A stretch of DNA of 64,000 nucleotides from Microthrixaceae bacterium. GTDB lineage: Bacteria; Actinomycetota; Acidimicrobiia; Acidimicrobiales; Microtrichaceae. A program made the translations under genes and the position numbers. The stretch's first letter is position 1. Every line of letters starts with the position of its first letter. The notes under the pieces are model-generated. The model saw only the letters and a program-made list of their open reading frames with translations, did no database searches and had not been told where the DNA came from. Below, one piece after another: positions 14,334-24,390 of the stretch. Location of the stretch: assembly GCA_023958095.1 (NCBI GenBank), contig JAMLGJ010000019.1, positions 1 to 64,000 on the forward strand, read 5' to 3'.

Positions 14334-14846
14334 CCGAACTCGGCGAGGCGGTCCGCTCCCACCCCTCTCCAGGGCCAGCAGGGCCCGCTTGACCTCGAGC
14401 CCGCCGCCGTATCCGGTGAGGCTGCCGTCGGAGCCGATCACACGGTGGCAGGGCACGATGATCGAGATGGGGTTGGAGTTGTTGGCTCCCCCCACGGCTC
14501 GAACGGCTCGCGGGCGCCCGACCGCGCGGGCGATGTCGCCGTAGGAAGCGGTCTCGCCGTAGGGAATCGATGCCAGCGCACCCCAGACCTGGAGCTGGAA
14601 CTCGGTTCCGTGCGGCTCCAGATCGAGGTCGAACGCCGTGCGCTCGCCCGCGAAGTACTCATCGAGCTGGTCCCGCACGAACGAGCAGGCCGCGTCGTCG
14701 CGCTCGGCACCGGGAACGCCGCTCCGCTCCTCCCCGCGGTGGTAGCTCACCTCGAGCACCACACCGTCACGCACGACGGTCAACAGCGCGCCCACCGGCG
14801 AATCGATCAGACCCCAGGTGGCCGTTCCCTCCGACCTGTGTTCCAT
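14322..14846 (-). CDS. ogt: Methylated-DNA--protein-cysteine methyltransferase (Ogt)
   Basis: A 174-aa suicide alkyltransferase that removes O6-alkyl groups from guanine. The active-site motif IIVPCHRVI with acceptor Cys is present, as are the preceding helix-turn-helix features (YGETASYGDIARAVGRPRAVRAVGGANNSN) and the substrate-loop GYGGGLEVKRALLALE. Length is normal. ATG 14846 is chosen because TWGLIDSPVGALLTVV, the usual N-terminal strand, follows closely; ATG 14909 would add an unconserved tail. It is divergent from the Ada/AlkA fusion gene, so both repair genes may share the 123-bp intergenic control region. Confidence 0.92.
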   Translation of the reverse strand: MEHRSEGTATWGLIDSPVGALLTVVRDGVVLEVSYHRGEERSGVPGAERDDAACSFVRDQLDEYFAGERTAFDLDLEPHGTEFQLQVWGALASIPYGETASYGDIARAVGRPRAVRAVGGANNSNPISIIVPCHRVIGSDGSLTGYGGGLEVKRALLALERGGSGPPRRVRSAT

Positions 14847-14969
14847 GGCAGTACCTCCAGTCGTGGCGACCGACGCCGCACCCCACCCTCGCGCGGGCGT
14901 GCGACGCACGGCCGGACGGATACGGACAGGCCCTCGAAACGGGGCACCGTGTCCGGATCCGTCGCCTCG

Positions 14970-16487
14970 GTGGACACTCCCACGTGGTCAGATTGCGGGG
15001 TGGGATTCCCGCGCGAACCCGATCCGGCACCGCGGCCGGTCGTGCGCGCAGTGCGCACGACCGGCATCTACTGCCGTCCGGGGTGCTCCGCACGTCCTCT
15101 GGAGTCGAACGTCGTGGAGTACCCGCTCGCGGCAGCGGCGGAGGCCGCCGGCTACCGGGCGTGCCACCGCTGCCGGCCATACCAGTCGCCGGATGCAGGT
15201 GCGATAGGGCCCGAGATCGTCTGCCGCGGGGTCAGGATGGTCACCGCGGGAGCGCTCGACGAACACACCGAGGCCGACCTGGCCGCCACACTCGGGGTCT
15301 CCGCGCGCCACCTCCGCAGGGTCTTCACCGAACACCTCGGCGTGACCCCCGACCGCCTCGCCCGGTCGCACCGGGCCCACTTCGCGCGCCGGCTGCTGGA
15401 CGATTCCGACCTGCCCGTGCGCGACGTCGCGTTCGCGGCCGGGTTCGGCAGCGTCCGCCAGCTGCAGCGGGCGATGGTCACCACCTTCGGCGAGCCACCC
15501 AGCGTGCTGCGCGAACGGCGGCCGGGCGGCGACGCCGCGCCGGGGACGACCGGGGGCCTCACGGTGCCGCTGCCCCACGACGGCCCACTCGACTGGCCCT
15601 GGATGTGCCGCTGGCTCGCCACGCGGGCCATCACGGGCGTCGAGACGGTCGACTTCGACGGGGATCCCCCGAACCGGGCGACACTGCGGCGCTCCTTCGA
15701 GGTCGACGGAGAAGCCGCTCTGGTGGAGCTGACGGCCGGGGGCCACGACGGCCGGCTCCTGCTGCGGGTGCACATGCCGCGCTGGGACGACCTCACCCAC
15801 CTGGTTCGCTCGGCGCGCCGGGTCGGGGCAACGGGCTCCGACGCCGCCGACGCCCTGGAGCACCTGGGGGCGGACCCGATCCTCGGGGAGCTCGTGCGCG
15901 GGCGACCCGGGTTGCGTCCCCCGGGCTGCTGGGACCCCTTCGCCGCGGTCGTCCAGGCGGTGCTGGCCCAGCAGGTCAGCACGCGCGCTGCGCGCACACT
16001 CGTCACCCGCCTCGTGCGCGCCCACGGCACACCGGTCGCCGGCCTGGAGGAACTCGGGCTGCACCTCGCGTTCCCGGACCCAGAGCTCCTCGCCGAGGCG
16101 GACCTGTCAGGGGTCGGACTCACCCGACGCCGGGCCGCGACCGTGCGCTCGGTCGCGCTCGCGGTCGGCTCCGGTGAACTCGACCTCGAGGATCCGCTGC
16201 TACTGGCCCCGAACCGTGCAGGTGGGGAGCCCGAGGTGCTCCGGGCGTTGCAGCGGGTCCCCGGCATCGGCCCATGGACGGCCTCCTACGTCGGGATCAG
16301 GATGGGCCTGCCCGACGAGTTCCCGGTGGCCGACCTCGCGCTGCGCGACGCCGTGGGTCTGCTCACCTCTGGACCCCGCCCCAGCACCCGGGAGCTGGCA
16401 GCGCTGTCTGAGGCGTGGCGCCCCCACCGCTCCTTCGCAGCGGTGCACCTCTGGACATGGTTGAGGGAGTTCAGAAGTCCCGGGTGA
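14970..16487 (+). CDS. Ada zinc domain / AraC / AlkA 3-methyladenine glycosylase fusion
   Basis: A roughly 505-aa protein in three parts. (1) Ada N-terminal zinc domain, TTGIYCRPGC plus ACHRCRP, supplying the four cysteines, one of which accepts methyl groups from phosphotriesters in Ada proteins. (2) AraC-type HTH (about 95-185; ATLGVSARHLRRVFTEHLGVTP). (3) AlkA-type glycosylase with the N-terminal AlkA domain (DWPWMCRWLATRAITGVETV) and the helix-hairpin-helix catalytic core: RVPGIGPWTASYVGIRMG followed by the catalytic Asp in FPVADLALRDAVG. It would sense methylation, activate repair genes and excise alkylated bases. The start is uncertain (GTG 14970 or GTG 14949). It ends 17 bp inside the convergent ATPase gene. 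Confidence 0.88.
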   Translation: MDTPTWSDCGVGFPREPDPAPRPVVRAVRTTGIYCRPGCSARPLESNVVEYPLAAAAEAAGYRACHRCRPYQSPDAGAIGPEIVCRGVRMVTAGALDEHTEADLAATLGVSARHLRRVFTEHLGVTPDRLARSHRAHFARRLLDDSDLPVRDVAFAAGFGSVRQLQRAMVTTFGEPPSVLRERRPGGDAAPGTTGGLTVPLPHDGPLDWPWMCRWLATRAITGVETVDFDGDPPNRATLRRSFEVDGEAALVELTAGGHDGRLLLRVHMPRWDDLTHLVRSARRVGATGSDAADALEHLGADPILGELVRGRPGLRPPGCWDPFAAVVQAVLAQQVSTRAARTLVTRLVRAHGTPVAGLEELGLHLAFPDPELLAEADLSGVGLTRRRAATVRSVALAVGSGELDLEDPLLLAPNRAGGEPEVLRALQRVPGIGPWTASYVGIRMGLPDEFPVADLALRDAVGLLTSGPRPSTRELAALSEAWRPHRSFAAVHLWTWLREFRSPG

Positions 16488-18982: not shown

Positions 18983-19858
18983 ATGGGACGAAGCGACCCC
19001 GTGCCGATCGGTCAGTGGGCCTACAACTGGCACGACCGCCCCCGACCATTCGTCCACCCGGTGACCACCCCGTCGGGCCGTGTGTTGACCGTCGACGCCC
19101 CGGCGGACCATCCGTGGCACCACGCGCTGTGGTTCACCATCAAGTTCGTCAACGGCGAGAACTTCTGGGAGGAGTACGACGACTACGGCCTGCTCGTGCA
19201 GGACCGACCCCCACGGGTGCTCGGAGCGACCGACGCGGCCGGTCGAATCTGGCGGAGCCACATCTCCTGGCAACGACCGGGAAACCCCGGGGGCACCGGG
19301 GCGGAGGTCGTGATCGACCAGGTCGTGGAGCTCGCCCTCGAACAGCACCGCGACATGGTCGCCATGGACTGGGACGTGCGCCTGGTGCCGCGGGTGGACG
19401 TGGTGCTCGACCGCACGCCCTTCACCACCTGGGGCGGCTACGGGGGGCTCACCTTCCGGGGGCGCGGGGACTGGCACGACACCACCCTGTGGGCCCCCGG
19501 ACACCCGTGGCCCCCGGGGGACGACACCCGGGCGCGGCTGCTCGGGGACGGTTCCAGGTGGTGCAGTCTCGAAGGCATGCTCCCCGGACCGCAGGGCGCT
19601 GAACGGCCCGCCGGGATGGCGATCCTCGACCATCCCGGCAACCCGAACCACCCGACCCCGTGGTACGCGAGCACCAGGGCCGACACCTACGGCGACGAGG
19701 GTTGGTCGAACTTCGTGAACGCGGCCTTCCTGTGGCACGGGCCACTGGAAGTTGCCGCCGGTGAGGAACTGCGGTTGCGCCACCGCGTGGTGACCTGGGA
19801 CGACGAATCGGACCACGAGCGCATCGACTCCGAGTGGGACCGCTGGGTGTCGCGGTGA
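18983..19858 (+). CDS. DUF6807 (PmoA-annotated) family protein
   Basis: A 291-aa protein of the family often mislabelled methane oxygenase PmoA. It shows the family features: FVHPVTTPSGRVLTVDAPADHPWHHALWF (read in two parts, with the HPWHHALWF core), WGGYGGLTFRG in the middle, and GMAILDHPGNPNHPTPWY (in parts) late in the chain. There are no membrane segments, so it is not the membrane subunit of methane monooxygenase. Family members sit in sugar-degradation clusters of soil and marine bacteria next to isomerases and oxidoreductases, and the fold is beta-sandwich-like; a carbohydrate-related role is likely but the reaction is unknown. It overlaps the next gene by 4 bp (GTGA), implying coupled translation. 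Confidence 0.8.
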   Translation: MGRSDPVPIGQWAYNWHDRPRPFVHPVTTPSGRVLTVDAPADHPWHHALWFTIKFVNGENFWEEYDDYGLLVQDRPPRVLGATDAAGRIWRSHISWQRPGNPGGTGAEVVIDQVVELALEQHRDMVAMDWDVRLVPRVDVVLDRTPFTTWGGYGGLTFRGRGDWHDTTLWAPGHPWPPGDDTRARLLGDGSRWCSLEGMLPGPQGAERPAGMAILDHPGNPNHPTPWYASTRADTYGDEGWSNFVNAAFLWHGPLEVAAGEELRLRHRVVTWDDESDHERIDSEWDRWVSR

Positions 19859-22542
19859 GAGCGAAGGCCGATGAGCTGCTCGGACTCACCACCGACACCC
19901 TCGAGCAACTGGTGGCGACGCACCTGCCGCGCTGGCGCATCCCCGGGTTCATGGCCGGACACCCGGTCGAACCCGACGTGGCCGCCGACGTCGCGTTCAC
20001 CCTCGCCCACCTCCACGACGCCGGGGTCACCGAGGTCGCCGGCAGCCCCGTGCCGGATGCCATCGAACAGGTGCTCGCACAGGTCGACGGTTCCCGCACC
20101 CACACGTTCTTCTCCTACCGCGTGGCCGAGACGCTGGCCCGCTTCGGGAGCTTCGACGACAACCAGATCCTGGCCGGCTGGTCACCCCGGGCGCGGGCCG
20201 ACATCGCGGCGGCCACCGACTCCCGCGAGTGGATCCAGCTGTTGGATGCGGGCCTGCCTCGCAACTACGCGGCGGTGCTCGCGCGCTGTGAGGTGGCACG
20301 TGAACGCCTGGGCCTGGAGGTGGACCCGGAGGTGACGGCGGACCTCCTCGGGCGCACCGCGTCGATGCTGGCCACCGATCCACTCGGATACCTCGACGAC
20401 TCGACCCACGGAGTCGGACGCACGGACATCTACACCGTCGACGTCTGGCTGTTCACCGAGCCCCTGGCGGATCGGCTCGGCGACATCTGGACCCGTGGGC
20501 TCGCAACCGCGGTGGAGCTGGTCTCCCGCACCGGGACCCCGGGTGGCTGTGCCATCAGCTGGGGGCGCTCGAGTGGGGCACTGGCAACCGCACTGACCAT
20601 CGAACTCGCCGCCGAGGTGCTGGCGACCGACGACCCCGCACTCCACGGGCGCCGGGACCTGTGGAGCGCACGGCTCGGACCTGCGGTGGCCTCCATGCGG
20701 CGCTGGTTCGAGTCGGGGCTCGTGAACGCCCACGTCGGAAGGAGCCCATATGGCTACAGGGGACCCTTCCGCCGCCTGCAGATGACCGCCGACCTGCTCG
20801 GCAAGCTGGCATGGGCAGCAGCTCGCCTCGGGGCCTGCCGCGTCGACCCCGGCGCCGAACCCGGCGACGGACGCGGCCGTGTCGTGTTCGACCACGACGA
20901 GCTCCTGCCCCTCGGATCGGATCCCGCGGCACACCTCTGGTCTCGCTCGGTTGGGCCGACCGGTTTCGTGGTGCCCTTCGTGGGAGCGACCCGCTCGGAC
21001 TACCTGGCTGCGCCGCGGCGGCCCGGCACCTATGAGGTGCCCGTCGACGCGGCGATCGGATGCTGGGTGCCGGTGGTCCACTCCGGCGCCGAGCAGTACG
21101 CACCCGCAGGGGTGCCCCTGGGCGTGGAGCACGCCCCGGGACGGGTGTCGGCCCGTTGGGGAGCACTCAGGCGGCTCGGCGACCTGGATCCACCCTCCGG
21201 AGGCCACGAACTGCCCGGAACCGCCGAGGTGACCTTCACCGAGGAGGGACGCGCGCTGCGCGTCGAGGTGATGGTGGAGCTCGCGACGGCACCCCATGCG
21301 GTGGCGGTCACGGTGCCCGAGACCTCCGGGACTCCGCTGCGCGTGGAGAACCTGGACGGACCGCGGGAGAAGCCGTTCGCGACCGTGGACACCGCCGGAA
21401 TCGCCGAGTGGCGTTCGTTCTGGGGTGAGCTCCCGGTCGTGCACCAGCACGACCTCGAACCCGACCCTGTCGAGCCACAGCTGTTCCGCAGTTCCTACCG
21501 GGTGACGCCCGCGGTGAGGGTGGCATCCACCGCGCACGGCCACCACTACGACCGGACTCTGTACGGACCCCTCGAACAACGGCGCCGGGCGGTGTCGGTG
21601 GCCAATCCGCTCGGGCCGCTCGGGAGCCCCGACGTGGGGGCGGACGACTTCGACGTGTTCCACCTCCACTGGCCGGAATGGTTGGCCTTCGACGACCTCT
21701 CCGAACACGAGGCCATCGCCAACACGCTGGCGGGGATGGACAAGCCCGTGCTGTGGACCGCTCACAACCTGCGGCCACACGCCAGAGGACCGGGTGATGC
21801 GCATCGGGCGGTCTACGAGCTCTGGGCCTCACGGGCGGACGCGGTGGTGCACCACAGCACCTGGGGACGCGACCGGATGCTGGCGACCCACGACTTCCCC
21901 GACGACACGACGCACCACGTGGTGCCGCACCCGCACTTCGGCGACCTCTACCCGAGTGCGCGCACGCCCCGCGGGGAGGCGGCCGCACGACTCGGGCTGC
22001 CCGAGGAAGGGATCCGGATCGGGCTGCTGGGCGCGCCGCGCAGCGAGCGCGACGTGCAGGGGTTCCTCGAAGCCGTGGCAGCCAGCACCAACCGCGACAT
22101 CCAGGTGTGCTGCTGGTCACTCGCCGCGGATCAGGAGGCTCCCCGGGACGGGCGCATCGCGGTGGCGGAGACCTACCGGATGGTCGATGCGGACACCTAC
22201 GGCCTGCGGCTCGCCGCCTGCGACGTGGTGGCCATGCCCGTGGACCCGGAGGGGGAGATGCTCGGCAGCGGTCTGGCAGCCGACGTGGTCGGCGCCGGTC
22301 TCGCGGCCCTGTGCACTCCCTGGGGCTACACCGAGGAGATCCTCGGCGGTGCGGTGATCCCGATGGGATTCGACCACGGGTCCATGGTCACCGCACTCGA
22401 CGGCCTGGACCGGGACACCGTCGAGGCCTCACGCAGCGCAGCGGTCGACCTGCGGGAGCGCCTCTCCCCCCTGCGCTGCGCCACGGCGACCGAGGAGATA
22501 CTCCTCGGACTGCTCACGGGCTCCCGGGCGGAGCGCCCCTGA
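19855..22542 (+). CDS. DUF2264-like toroid domain fused to a GT4-type glycosyltransferase
   Basis: An 895-aa protein with two unrelated halves. Residues 1-about 330 form a helical repeat region (HTFFSYRVAETLARFGSFDD, then DIYTVDVWLFTEPLADRLG and ISWGRSSGALATALTIELAA) that resembles DUF2264/heparinase-like alpha/alpha toroids; about 330-570 is beta-rich, as in the companion domain of such enzymes. Residues about 595-895 look like a GT-B glycosyltransferase: FDVFHLHWPEWLAF, KPVLWTAHNLRPH, a GLLGAPRSERDVQGFL segment and a C-terminal helix region. The expected donor-binding E-x7-E is not obvious (EGEMLGSGLAADVVGAG is the nearest region). The GTG start overlaps the preceding stop. Substrate unknown; the domain names are my reading and need profile searches. 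Confidence 0.7.
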   Translation: MRAKADELLGLTTDTLEQLVATHLPRWRIPGFMAGHPVEPDVAADVAFTLAHLHDAGVTEVAGSPVPDAIEQVLAQVDGSRTHTFFSYRVAETLARFGSFDDNQILAGWSPRARADIAAATDSREWIQLLDAGLPRNYAAVLARCEVARERLGLEVDPEVTADLLGRTASMLATDPLGYLDDSTHGVGRTDIYTVDVWLFTEPLADRLGDIWTRGLATAVELVSRTGTPGGCAISWGRSSGALATALTIELAAEVLATDDPALHGRRDLWSARLGPAVASMRRWFESGLVNAHVGRSPYGYRGPFRRLQMTADLLGKLAWAAARLGACRVDPGAEPGDGRGRVVFDHDELLPLGSDPAAHLWSRSVGPTGFVVPFVGATRSDYLAAPRRPGTYEVPVDAAIGCWVPVVHSGAEQYAPAGVPLGVEHAPGRVSARWGALRRLGDLDPPSGGHELPGTAEVTFTEEGRALRVEVMVELATAPHAVAVTVPETSGTPLRVENLDGPREKPFATVDTAGIAEWRSFWGELPVVHQHDLEPDPVEPQLFRSSYRVTPAVRVASTAHGHHYDRTLYGPLEQRRRAVSVANPLGPLGSPDVGADDFDVFHLHWPEWLAFDDLSEHEAIANTLAGMDKPVLWTAHNLRPHARGPGDAHRAVYELWASRADAVVHHSTWGRDRMLATHDFPDDTTHHVVPHPHFGDLYPSARTPRGEAAARLGLPEEGIRIGLLGAPRSERDVQGFLEAVAASTNRDIQVCCWSLAADQEAPRDGRIAVAETYRMVDADTYGLRLAACDVVAMPVDPEGEMLGSGLAADVVGAGLAALCTPWGYTEEILGGAVIPMGFDHGSMVTALDGLDRDTVEASRSAAVDLRERLSPLRCATATEEILLGLLTGSRAERP

Positions 22543-23356
22543 GGGCCTCCGGCGGCCGTGCTCCGGTGCCGCCGACAGGACCGTCCCCGACGACCGCGAG
22601 GATCTCCCTCAGCACCGCCGCGTCGCGTCGGAGGTTCGCCGGGTCGTCGTGTTCGACGAACTCGATCAGCACGGAGCGCCTGAAGCCCTCCGGCGCGTCC
22701 AGGTCCCCTGCGGTGCGGATCCATTCGGTCCAGCTGCGACGTTGCCGGGAGAGCGGGTGGCGCGTGCCGTCGCCCGACCAGGCGTAGACGTGCAGGTGCG
22801 CCAGCTGCTCGCCGAGCATCCGGATGGCGGCCACACCCGGCGCCGTCCGCGGAAGTGCCCCCGGTTCCCCGCCCGGGGACCAGTACGGCGGCTGCCAGGC
22901 GCACAGCAGGTTCGGCGCATCGACGCGCTCCAGCAGCGACACCGCCGAAGGGGCACTCGAGGTGAGGGTGCCTCCATGGAACTCCAGGTACACCCACAAC
23001 CCCAGCTCCGCCGCGGCGTCGGCCACCTCGGCGAGGGAATCAGCGGTGCCATCGGGTGGCGCCCAGACGCGCACCGCCGGGGCTCCGAGGGCCACTGCCG
23101 TGTCCAGCACCGGCCCCATGGACCCGGCCGCGGCGCCATCCGCGACCAGGTAGGAGCCGTAGGAGCACACCTCCAGCCCTGCGTCCACGGTGCGCCGGGC
23201 GACCTCGCCGGCGGTGCGCAGGTCGCCGTGGGGGACGTGCACGTCACCACCCCACTCGATGCAGCGCAGGCCCGCTCGTGTTGCCAGCTCCACGATCTCC
23301 GCGGCACTGCACCGGCGGAAGGTGACCGAGCAGAGGCCCGGCTGCAGCCGACTCAC
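22514..23356 (-). CDS. Sugar phosphate isomerase/epimerase-family TIM barrel
   Basis: A 280-aa xylose-isomerase-like TIM barrel. Hallmarks: FRRCSAAEIVELATRAGLRC with CIEWGGDVHVPHGD (metal His region), VYLEFHGGTL (metal Glu and His), LCAWQPPYWSPGG and HLHVYAWSGDG; QLAHLHVY is the usual late strand. It probably binds a divalent metal and isomerises or epimerises a sugar or keto-sugar. The ATG start overlaps the stop of the upstream hydroxyacid dehydrogenase as ATGA, making it the third gene of a minus-strand operon beginning at 25225. Its 3' end overlaps the convergent glycosyltransferase fusion by 29 bp, so the two operons of the cluster meet here. Confidence 0.85.
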   Translation of the reverse strand: MSRLQPGLCSVTFRRCSAAEIVELATRAGLRCIEWGGDVHVPHGDLRTAGEVARRTVDAGLEVCSYGSYLVADGAAAGSMGPVLDTAVALGAPAVRVWAPPDGTADSLAEVADAAAELGLWVYLEFHGGTLTSSAPSAVSLLERVDAPNLLCAWQPPYWSPGGEPGALPRTAPGVAAIRMLGEQLAHLHVYAWSGDGTRHPLSRQRRSWTEWIRTAGDLDAPEGFRRSVLIEFVEHDDPANLRRDAAVLREILAVVGDGPVGGTGARPPEALRGAPPGSP

Positions 23357-24390
23357 GCGATCCTCGGAATGTCCTCACGCCGAACCGGGTACAGCGGAGA
23401 CTCACCGGCGGCGAAGCGCGCCACCTCGGCGACCGCAAGGTCGGTCAGGCGTCGGGTCTCACTCCCCACCGCACCGGCGACGTGCGGGGTCAACATGACG
23501 TTCGGCAGCTCCCGCAGTGGCGAATCGACCGGTAGGGGCTCCGGGTGGGTGACATCCAGGATGGCCTGCAACCGGCCCGACGCGAGTTCCTGCTGCAGCG
23601 CTGCGGTGTCGATCAGGGCCCCCCGCGCGGTGTTGACGATGGTGACGCCGTCGGCCAGCAGCGACAGCTGTCGGGCTCCGATCATCCGGCGGGTCGAATC
23701 GAGTTCGGGGGCGTGCAGGCTCAACACGTCGCACCAGCTGCAGAGCTCGTCGAGTTCCATCTTCTGCGCACCCATGCGGGCGGCGTCATCGTCGTCCAGG
23801 TACGGATCGTGGAACGCCACCTGCAGGTCGTGGACCGAGAGGTACTCGCAGGTGAGCCGGCCCACGTGCGAGGCACCCACGAGCCCGACGCGGCGGTCGT
23901 GGTTGCCGAGCGCGGACATGTCCAGTGGCACCCGCAGCGAGGGGTCCCGCTCGGCTGCCGAGAGCCACACGATCCCCTTGTTCGCGAGCAGGATCGCAGC
24001 AGCTGCGAACTCCGCGACGGGAACCGCGTTCGCCGCGGCGGCGCTCGTCACCACCACCCCACGCTCCCAGAGCTCGTCGGTGACCTGCCACTTCACGGTT
24101 CCGGCGCCGTAGGCGAACATGGCCAGCCTCGGCATCGCCTCGAGCGCCGTGGCGTCGAGTGTCGGGCAACCCCAGTGTCCGAAGATGACATCGGTGTCGG
24201 CGAGCAGCTCCGCAACAGCGGGATCCGAGAAGTCGCCCACCGGGACACGTGTGGACAGCTCGCCGATCTCGGCCAGTGCATCCAGGTGTTCCTCGGTCAC
24301 CGCGTAGCCGAGCAGACCATCCATCATCGCAGGGGTGATCACCGGAGGTCGGGCTCGTCGGGAACCCGGCTGCCCAGCGTGGTCGGTCAC
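23353..24390 (-). CDS. D-2-hydroxyacid dehydrogenase family protein
   Basis: A 345-aa NAD-dependent D-isomer-specific 2-hydroxyacid dehydrogenase. The Rossmann motif reads VGLVGASHVGRL (Gly-x-Gly-x2-Gly is altered to GASHVG, so the second Gly is Ser/Ala-like), the catalytic Arg is in IVNTARGALIDTAAL, the Glu in VTHPEPLP and the His in MLTPHVAG. It reduces a 2-keto acid or oxidises a hydroxy acid, possibly a sugar-acid intermediate given its neighbours. The GTG start at 24390 lies 13 bases after the upstream gene's stop. The altered nucleotide loop is worth noting but is seen in some sugar-acid members of the family. Confidence 0.87.
   Translation of the reverse strand: MTDHAGQPGSRRARPPVITPAMMDGLLGYAVTEEHLDALAEIGELSTRVPVGDFSDPAVAELLADTDVIFGHWGCPTLDATALEAMPRLAMFAYGAGTVKWQVTDELWERGVVVTSAAAANAVPVAEFAAAAILLANKGIVWLSAAERDPSLRVPLDMSALGNHDRRVGLVGASHVGRLTCEYLSVHDLQVAFHDPYLDDDDAARMGAQKMELDELCSWCDVLSLHAPELDSTRRMIGARQLSLLADGVTIVNTARGALIDTAALQQELASGRLQAILDVTHPEPLPVDSPLRELPNVMLTPHVAGAVGSETRRLTDLAVAEVARFAAGESPLYPVRREDIPRIA

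Follow-up and report, generated by a model that had tools for sequence, protein, structure and literature searches.

A helical toroid combined with a β-sheet domain is known from polysaccharide lyases (HepC of PL12, chondroitin AC lyase of PL8, Alg17c of PL17, PL33 enzymes and GAGases), and the matched entries of these lyases carry no GT-B glycosyltransferase (GT) domain. The same toroid and β fold occurs in dermatan sulfate epimerase (6HZN), a eukaryotic, secretory protein. In DSE and DSEL, a sugar-editing domain is followed by another domain. On the transferase side, the closest described systems are GT4 enzymes (MshA 3C4Q, GlgM 6TVP, BshA, SenB), which have a GT-B fold and no such N-terminal unit.

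Toroid proteins of a further kind are collected in DUF2264 and the GH154 family (BcGDH, 9O4U and 9NWF; BT_3677; BD-beta-Gal, 8OI4), and no GT domain was seen in their loci that we examined. DUF2264 matches 8OI4, 9O4U and 9NWF by sequence. GH154 has been re-described as a family of β-glucuronate dehydratases, in which alanine mutants of E74, R78, N176, N177, W178, F181, Y229, R285, Y289 and Y354 have no activity (PMC12269599). In the glucuronate dehydratase BcGDH, Y229 probably serves as the base and Y289 as the acid (PMC12269599).

Here we describe a protein in which a toroid and β unit is joined to a GT-B domain in a single chain. Its gene lies in a window of 64,000 nucleotides, the whole stretch of DNA that was analysed, from the genome of a Microthrixaceae bacterium (Table 1). 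The predicted 895-aa frame is real and uninterrupted, and the sequence motifs quoted in the original prediction are found in its product. Counted from the start at 19855, family-wide conservation begins at about residue 5 in the alignment of relatives; a start at the alternative in-frame GTG at 19834 would lengthen the protein to 902 aa. The proposed coupling to a DUF6807 gene through a GTGA overlap was borne out by the PF14100 match and by the shared bases at 19855–19858, where the GTG of the fusion gene (19855–19857) overlaps the TGA of the DUF6807 gene (19856–19858). The N-terminal sequence of the fusion protein has no evident signal peptide.

Table 1. Positions of the fusion gene, its domains and its neighbours in the window
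Feature	Positions	Strand	Description
DUF6807 gene	18983..19858	+	PF14100 E 7e-45; upstream of the fusion gene in relatives too
Fusion gene	19855..22542	+	Intact open frame, 895 aa, GTG start; full-length single-frame homologues
Toroid domain	19912..20844	+	Residues ~20-330, helical; AlphaFold2, fold matches, DUF2264 profile match
β-sheet companion domain	20887..21510	+	Residues ~345-552; DSSP of models, within polysaccharide lyase matches
GT4-like GT-B domain	21511..22524	+	Residues ~553-890; alpha/beta; MshA Z 27.2, rmsd 3.2, 320 residues
Xylose isomerase-like TIM barrel gene	22514..23356	-	PF01261 E 4e-8; convergent with the fusion gene; conserved neighbour
D-2-hydroxyacid dehydrogenase gene	23353..24390	-	PF02826 E 3e-42; conserved neighbour

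The AlphaFold2 model of the whole protein, built from 33 sequences, reached a pLDDT of 91.4 and a pTM of 0.89; for the N-terminal unit modelled separately these values were 88.6 and 0.90. The toroid and its β-rich companion, both of which had been predicted, are seen in the models and in the fold matches, and the three-part anatomy is well supported. The GT-B domain, on the other hand, does not begin at residue 595 as proposed for a domain spanning 595–895. According to DSSP, the last strand of the β domain (residues 543–552) leads straight to the GT-B domain's first strand (554–558). There is thus no linker between the two domains, and the transferase starts about 45 residues earlier than thought, with the boundary at ~551–553 and the domain at ~553–890.

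A search of Pfam and NCBIfam with the N-terminal 572 residues gave no match. Because this half is invisible to both collections, we are dealing with a conserved Acidimicrobiia enzyme family without useful annotation. When PDB sequences were searched with HMMER profiles, that of the N-terminal domain had no match, and those of the whole protein and the GT domain gave weak or chance matches only. The folds themselves are already known. The searched libraries contain neither the family nor its link to GH154 nor the linker-less pairing with GT-B, and a literature search for such a fusion found no paper.

In structure comparisons, the toroid and β unit matched HepC with a Z of 19.3 over 416 residues (6.0 Å), followed by heparinase III (Z 18.5), alginate lyase (18.0) and chondroitin AC lyase (16.7), with PL17, PL33 and GAGases likewise among the matches. 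The toroid and the β sheet were each matched along their length. Human dermatan sulfate epimerase aligned with the same unit at Z 13.4 over 464 residues (4.2 Å); its relative DSEL has a sulfotransferase-like partner domain, whereas the partner is GT-B in the window protein. The lyase-fold matches share 5–12% sequence identity with the window protein, and a common fold does not prove function. The window protein also differs from these lyases in showing no sign of export. The original prediction had spoken of a putative glycan-cleaving or glycan-binding fold. Cleavage is just one of several chemistries of this fold, and the nearest characterised DUF2264 relatives are now described as uronate dehydratases.

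Heparinase II/III was considered as a sequence relative of the toroid and rejected (profile–profile P 0.15–0.32); neither the window protein nor its relatives have a Pfam match to PF07940 or PF16889. A fused GT was present in 0 of the seven actinobacterial heparinase frames scanned.

The toroid had also been called DUF2264-like, and this claim held up only as a probable remote relationship. HMMER found no match to the Pfam family DUF2264 (PF10022) in the window protein or in 28 relatives, even at E 1. Profile–profile comparison with collected DUF2264 proteins gave a score of 41.4 (P 4e-4) over the toroid, compared with at most 28.3 in 150 block shuffles and 20.3 when the profile was reversed. 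A more diverse set of DUF2264 proteins raised the score to 50.4 (P 2.8e-5, HH probability 74%; best of 100 shuffles 33.7), and the match is remote. With query and template swapped, P was 2e-4 and the probability 44%.

Aligned by sequence alone, N137 (20263–20265), Y193 (20431–20433) and R238 (20566–20568) correspond to N177, Y229 and R285 of BcGDH, so that an Asn, the base Tyr and an Arg are common to both groups. Each of the three is invariant in 33/33 sequences. The acid Tyr of DUF2264/GH154 is absent from the fusion toroid: Y289 aligns with residue 242, which is A, V, S, I or D among the 33 sequences and is not conserved. Y354 of BcGDH seemingly has no counterpart in the fusion family. Judging from these sequence comparisons, the N-terminal domain is best called a probable remote relative whose active site is conserved in part, and not a member of DUF2264/GH154. 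The link to GH154 gives a testable catalytic set, namely N137, Y193 and R238.

For the C-terminal part, the predicted GT4-type GT-B domain was supported by its fold. The closest matches are GT4 enzymes, with MshA at Z 27.2 and GlgM at 26.5; across these enzymes, Z is 24–27 over ~300–320 residues at 8–19% identity. In Pfam, the window protein scores 18.7 bits against PF13439 (Glyco_transf_4), below the cut-off of 28.5; when matches down to E 1 are counted, a GT match is seen in 24 of 29 relatives, the best at 6e-8. Neither of the two Pfam families for which the original prediction proposed a check is matched above threshold by the window protein: the GT match is sub-threshold and DUF2264 gives none.

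H603, H605, H637, R729, D810 and E828 are invariant in the GT-B domain. The EX7E and GR..K motifs of GT4 enzymes are partly kept. In the former, D810 is invariant and E801 variable; in the latter, the Lys is present as K732 in 31/33 sequences (Arg in the other two), and A727 stands at the place of the usual Arg, with R729 nearby. We also noted a stand-alone relative of the GT domain (L055:5361-6506, +) beside nucleotidyltransferase, ABC transporter and sulfotransferase genes, in what is probably a sulfated-polysaccharide locus.

The fusion gene often lies in what resembles a cluster for sugar metabolism. In 30 loci that span 10 kb or more, its neighbours include the dehydrogenase (16 loci), the isomerase (13), DUF6807 (11), a DUF993/DHDPS-like protein (9), an old-yellow-enzyme (OYE) homologue (8) and the c8 family (5), while 11 loci contain none of the cluster genes. 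In the window, the dehydrogenase gene overlaps the isomerase gene by 4 bases. The c8 family consists of secreted-looking proteins of ~740 aa that recur beside the fusion cluster (L023:14734-16962, +; L160:4004-6193, -; and relatives) and have no Pfam or PDB sequence match. As a candidate relative of the toroid, c8 gained no support. Elsewhere in the window, a 535-aa frame (14570–16177, +) with no Pfam or PHROGs match is perhaps not a gene.

In the window's own genome, homologues of DUF993-like, OYE and c8 proteins lie together on another contig (L160, C16 36000-42300), where the match to the DUF993-like gene crosses one TGA. With these genes placed away from the fusion gene, the pathway therefore appears to be distributed over two separate loci here.

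G038, a genome of the same order that consists of one contig, lacks the fusion. There, DUF2264 forms a run with DUF993-like (54–57%) and OYE (53%) homologues, and a dehydrogenase homologue (46%) is found ~4 kb away (L153, 4212000-4231900). On a Streptomyces plasmid, DUF2264 adjoins a hydroxyacid dehydrogenase with 43% identity to that of the window. In one cluster and one plasmid, DUF2264 thus takes a place equivalent to that of the fusion toroid. This speaks for a similar role, although the cases are few. The fixed fusion, together with a cluster in which DUF2264 can substitute, points to an uncharacterised sugar pathway. A GH36 alpha-galactosidase gene also occurs near the DUF2264 run of G038.

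Our best explanation, which we put forward tentatively, is that the protein is a bifunctional sugar enzyme of the cytosol, probably with two active sites, combining lyase/dehydratase-type chemistry with glycosyl transfer. In the toroid, Y193 would be the base that deprotonates an acidic or oxidised sugar, while R238 and N137 would stabilise the carboxylate; the outcome would be elimination or dehydration, and not epimerisation. The GT-B domain would act on the same molecule in either direction, by adding a glycosyl residue or removing one. In the clade of the window protein, the enzyme may work in a sugar-acid pathway with the isomerase, the 2-hydroxyacid dehydrogenase and the DUF993-like and OYE-like proteins.

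Confidence in this mechanism is tempered by the missing acid Tyr and by the partly degenerate GT4 motifs. We also count against it the remoteness of the profile match, the 11/30 loci without the cluster and the biosynthetic surroundings of the copy in Streptomyces hoynatensis. That the two sites act in turn on the same sugar within one rigid cytosolic chain is possible but doubtful, and the searched libraries hold no precedent for it. The fusion may couple chain processing with glycosyl transfer, as was suggested originally. Should both sites prove active, the protein would be an example of how one chain combines elimination with glycosyl transfer.

The protein could instead be biosynthetic, with the GT4 domain glycosylating a small molecule or a glycan and the toroid editing the sugar, for example as a C5-epimerase of the dermatan sulfate epimerase kind or as a dehydratase with an unsaturated sugar as its product. 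The GT4 fold itself is consistent with such a role, as is the toroid and β fold of dermatan sulfate epimerase. The neighbours of the S. hoynatensis copy (GT8, ABC transporter, carbamoyltransferase and NRPS genes) and those of the stand-alone GT relative point the same way. We nevertheless regard this explanation as rather unlikely, given the catabolic-looking neighbours in the window's clade and the DUF2264 protein that stands in for the fusion in a catabolic-looking cluster.

The catabolic-looking cluster of the fusion gene would also fit a GT-B domain that acts in degradation, as a phosphorylase or by NDP-dependent cleavage, with the toroid handling the released or terminal sugar. GT4 does include trehalose phosphorylases and reversible sucrose synthases, but the best fold matches of the domain are synthetic GT4 enzymes, and we consider a degradative transferase improbable.

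The absence of the GH154 acid Tyr might also mean that the toroid is catalytically dead and serves only to bind the GT domain's acceptor glycan. This is a little less probable still, as the toroid is the most conserved part of the protein (mean identity 0.53, compared with 0.49 for the GT and 0.39 for the β domain) and dozens of its polar residues are invariant, among them the Asn, Tyr and Arg shared with its relatives. Binding modules usually drift faster.

Full-length single-frame homologues with 38–56% identity are found in at least 32 other genomes. In 14 of 60 related genomes, the whole protein is encoded in one frame without stops (43–56% identity), and a scan of GTDB contigs yielded 40 loci, of which 32 aligned over their full length with the window protein. 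The fusion is therefore retained in homologues, and two genes joined by a frameshift, which had been named as a possible refutation, can be dismissed together with a chimera, an assembly error or chance, since the intact copies come from numerous assemblies made independently, among them the complete Aquihabitans sp. G128 genome, and the few broken ones either lie at contig ends (L052 and L054) or contain internal stops (L053). With the fusion intact in more than 30 other genomes, we conclude that the joint is real and the protein probably a hitherto unnamed two-part sugar enzyme, the two parts being the N-terminal unit and the transferase.

The two halves also travel together. A clear match to the N-terminal domain was present in 22 of 296 genomes of the class, and an intact N-terminal domain without the GT in 0. 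The incomplete cases are halves of one bin (L052 and L054), other partial contigs and the L053 copy. Strong GT-domain matches (E < 1e-100) are fused too, except for two broken or contig-edge cases, and stand-alone GTs are distant relatives only (E 1e-20 or weaker). Pairwise distances of the toroid and of the GT are correlated at 0.76. No relatives of the fusion were found in the viral contigs and plasmids searched.

The hosts are mostly Acidimicrobiia bins, and the grouping partner of the window protein (L036) comes from a Microthrixaceae bin. Other carriers are Aquihabitans sp. G128, S. hoynatensis and two Myxococcota/Deltaproteobacteria bins. One contig labelled Bifidobacterium breve (L043) has a typical Acidimicrobiia-type fusion cluster and probably belongs to a mislabelled bin.
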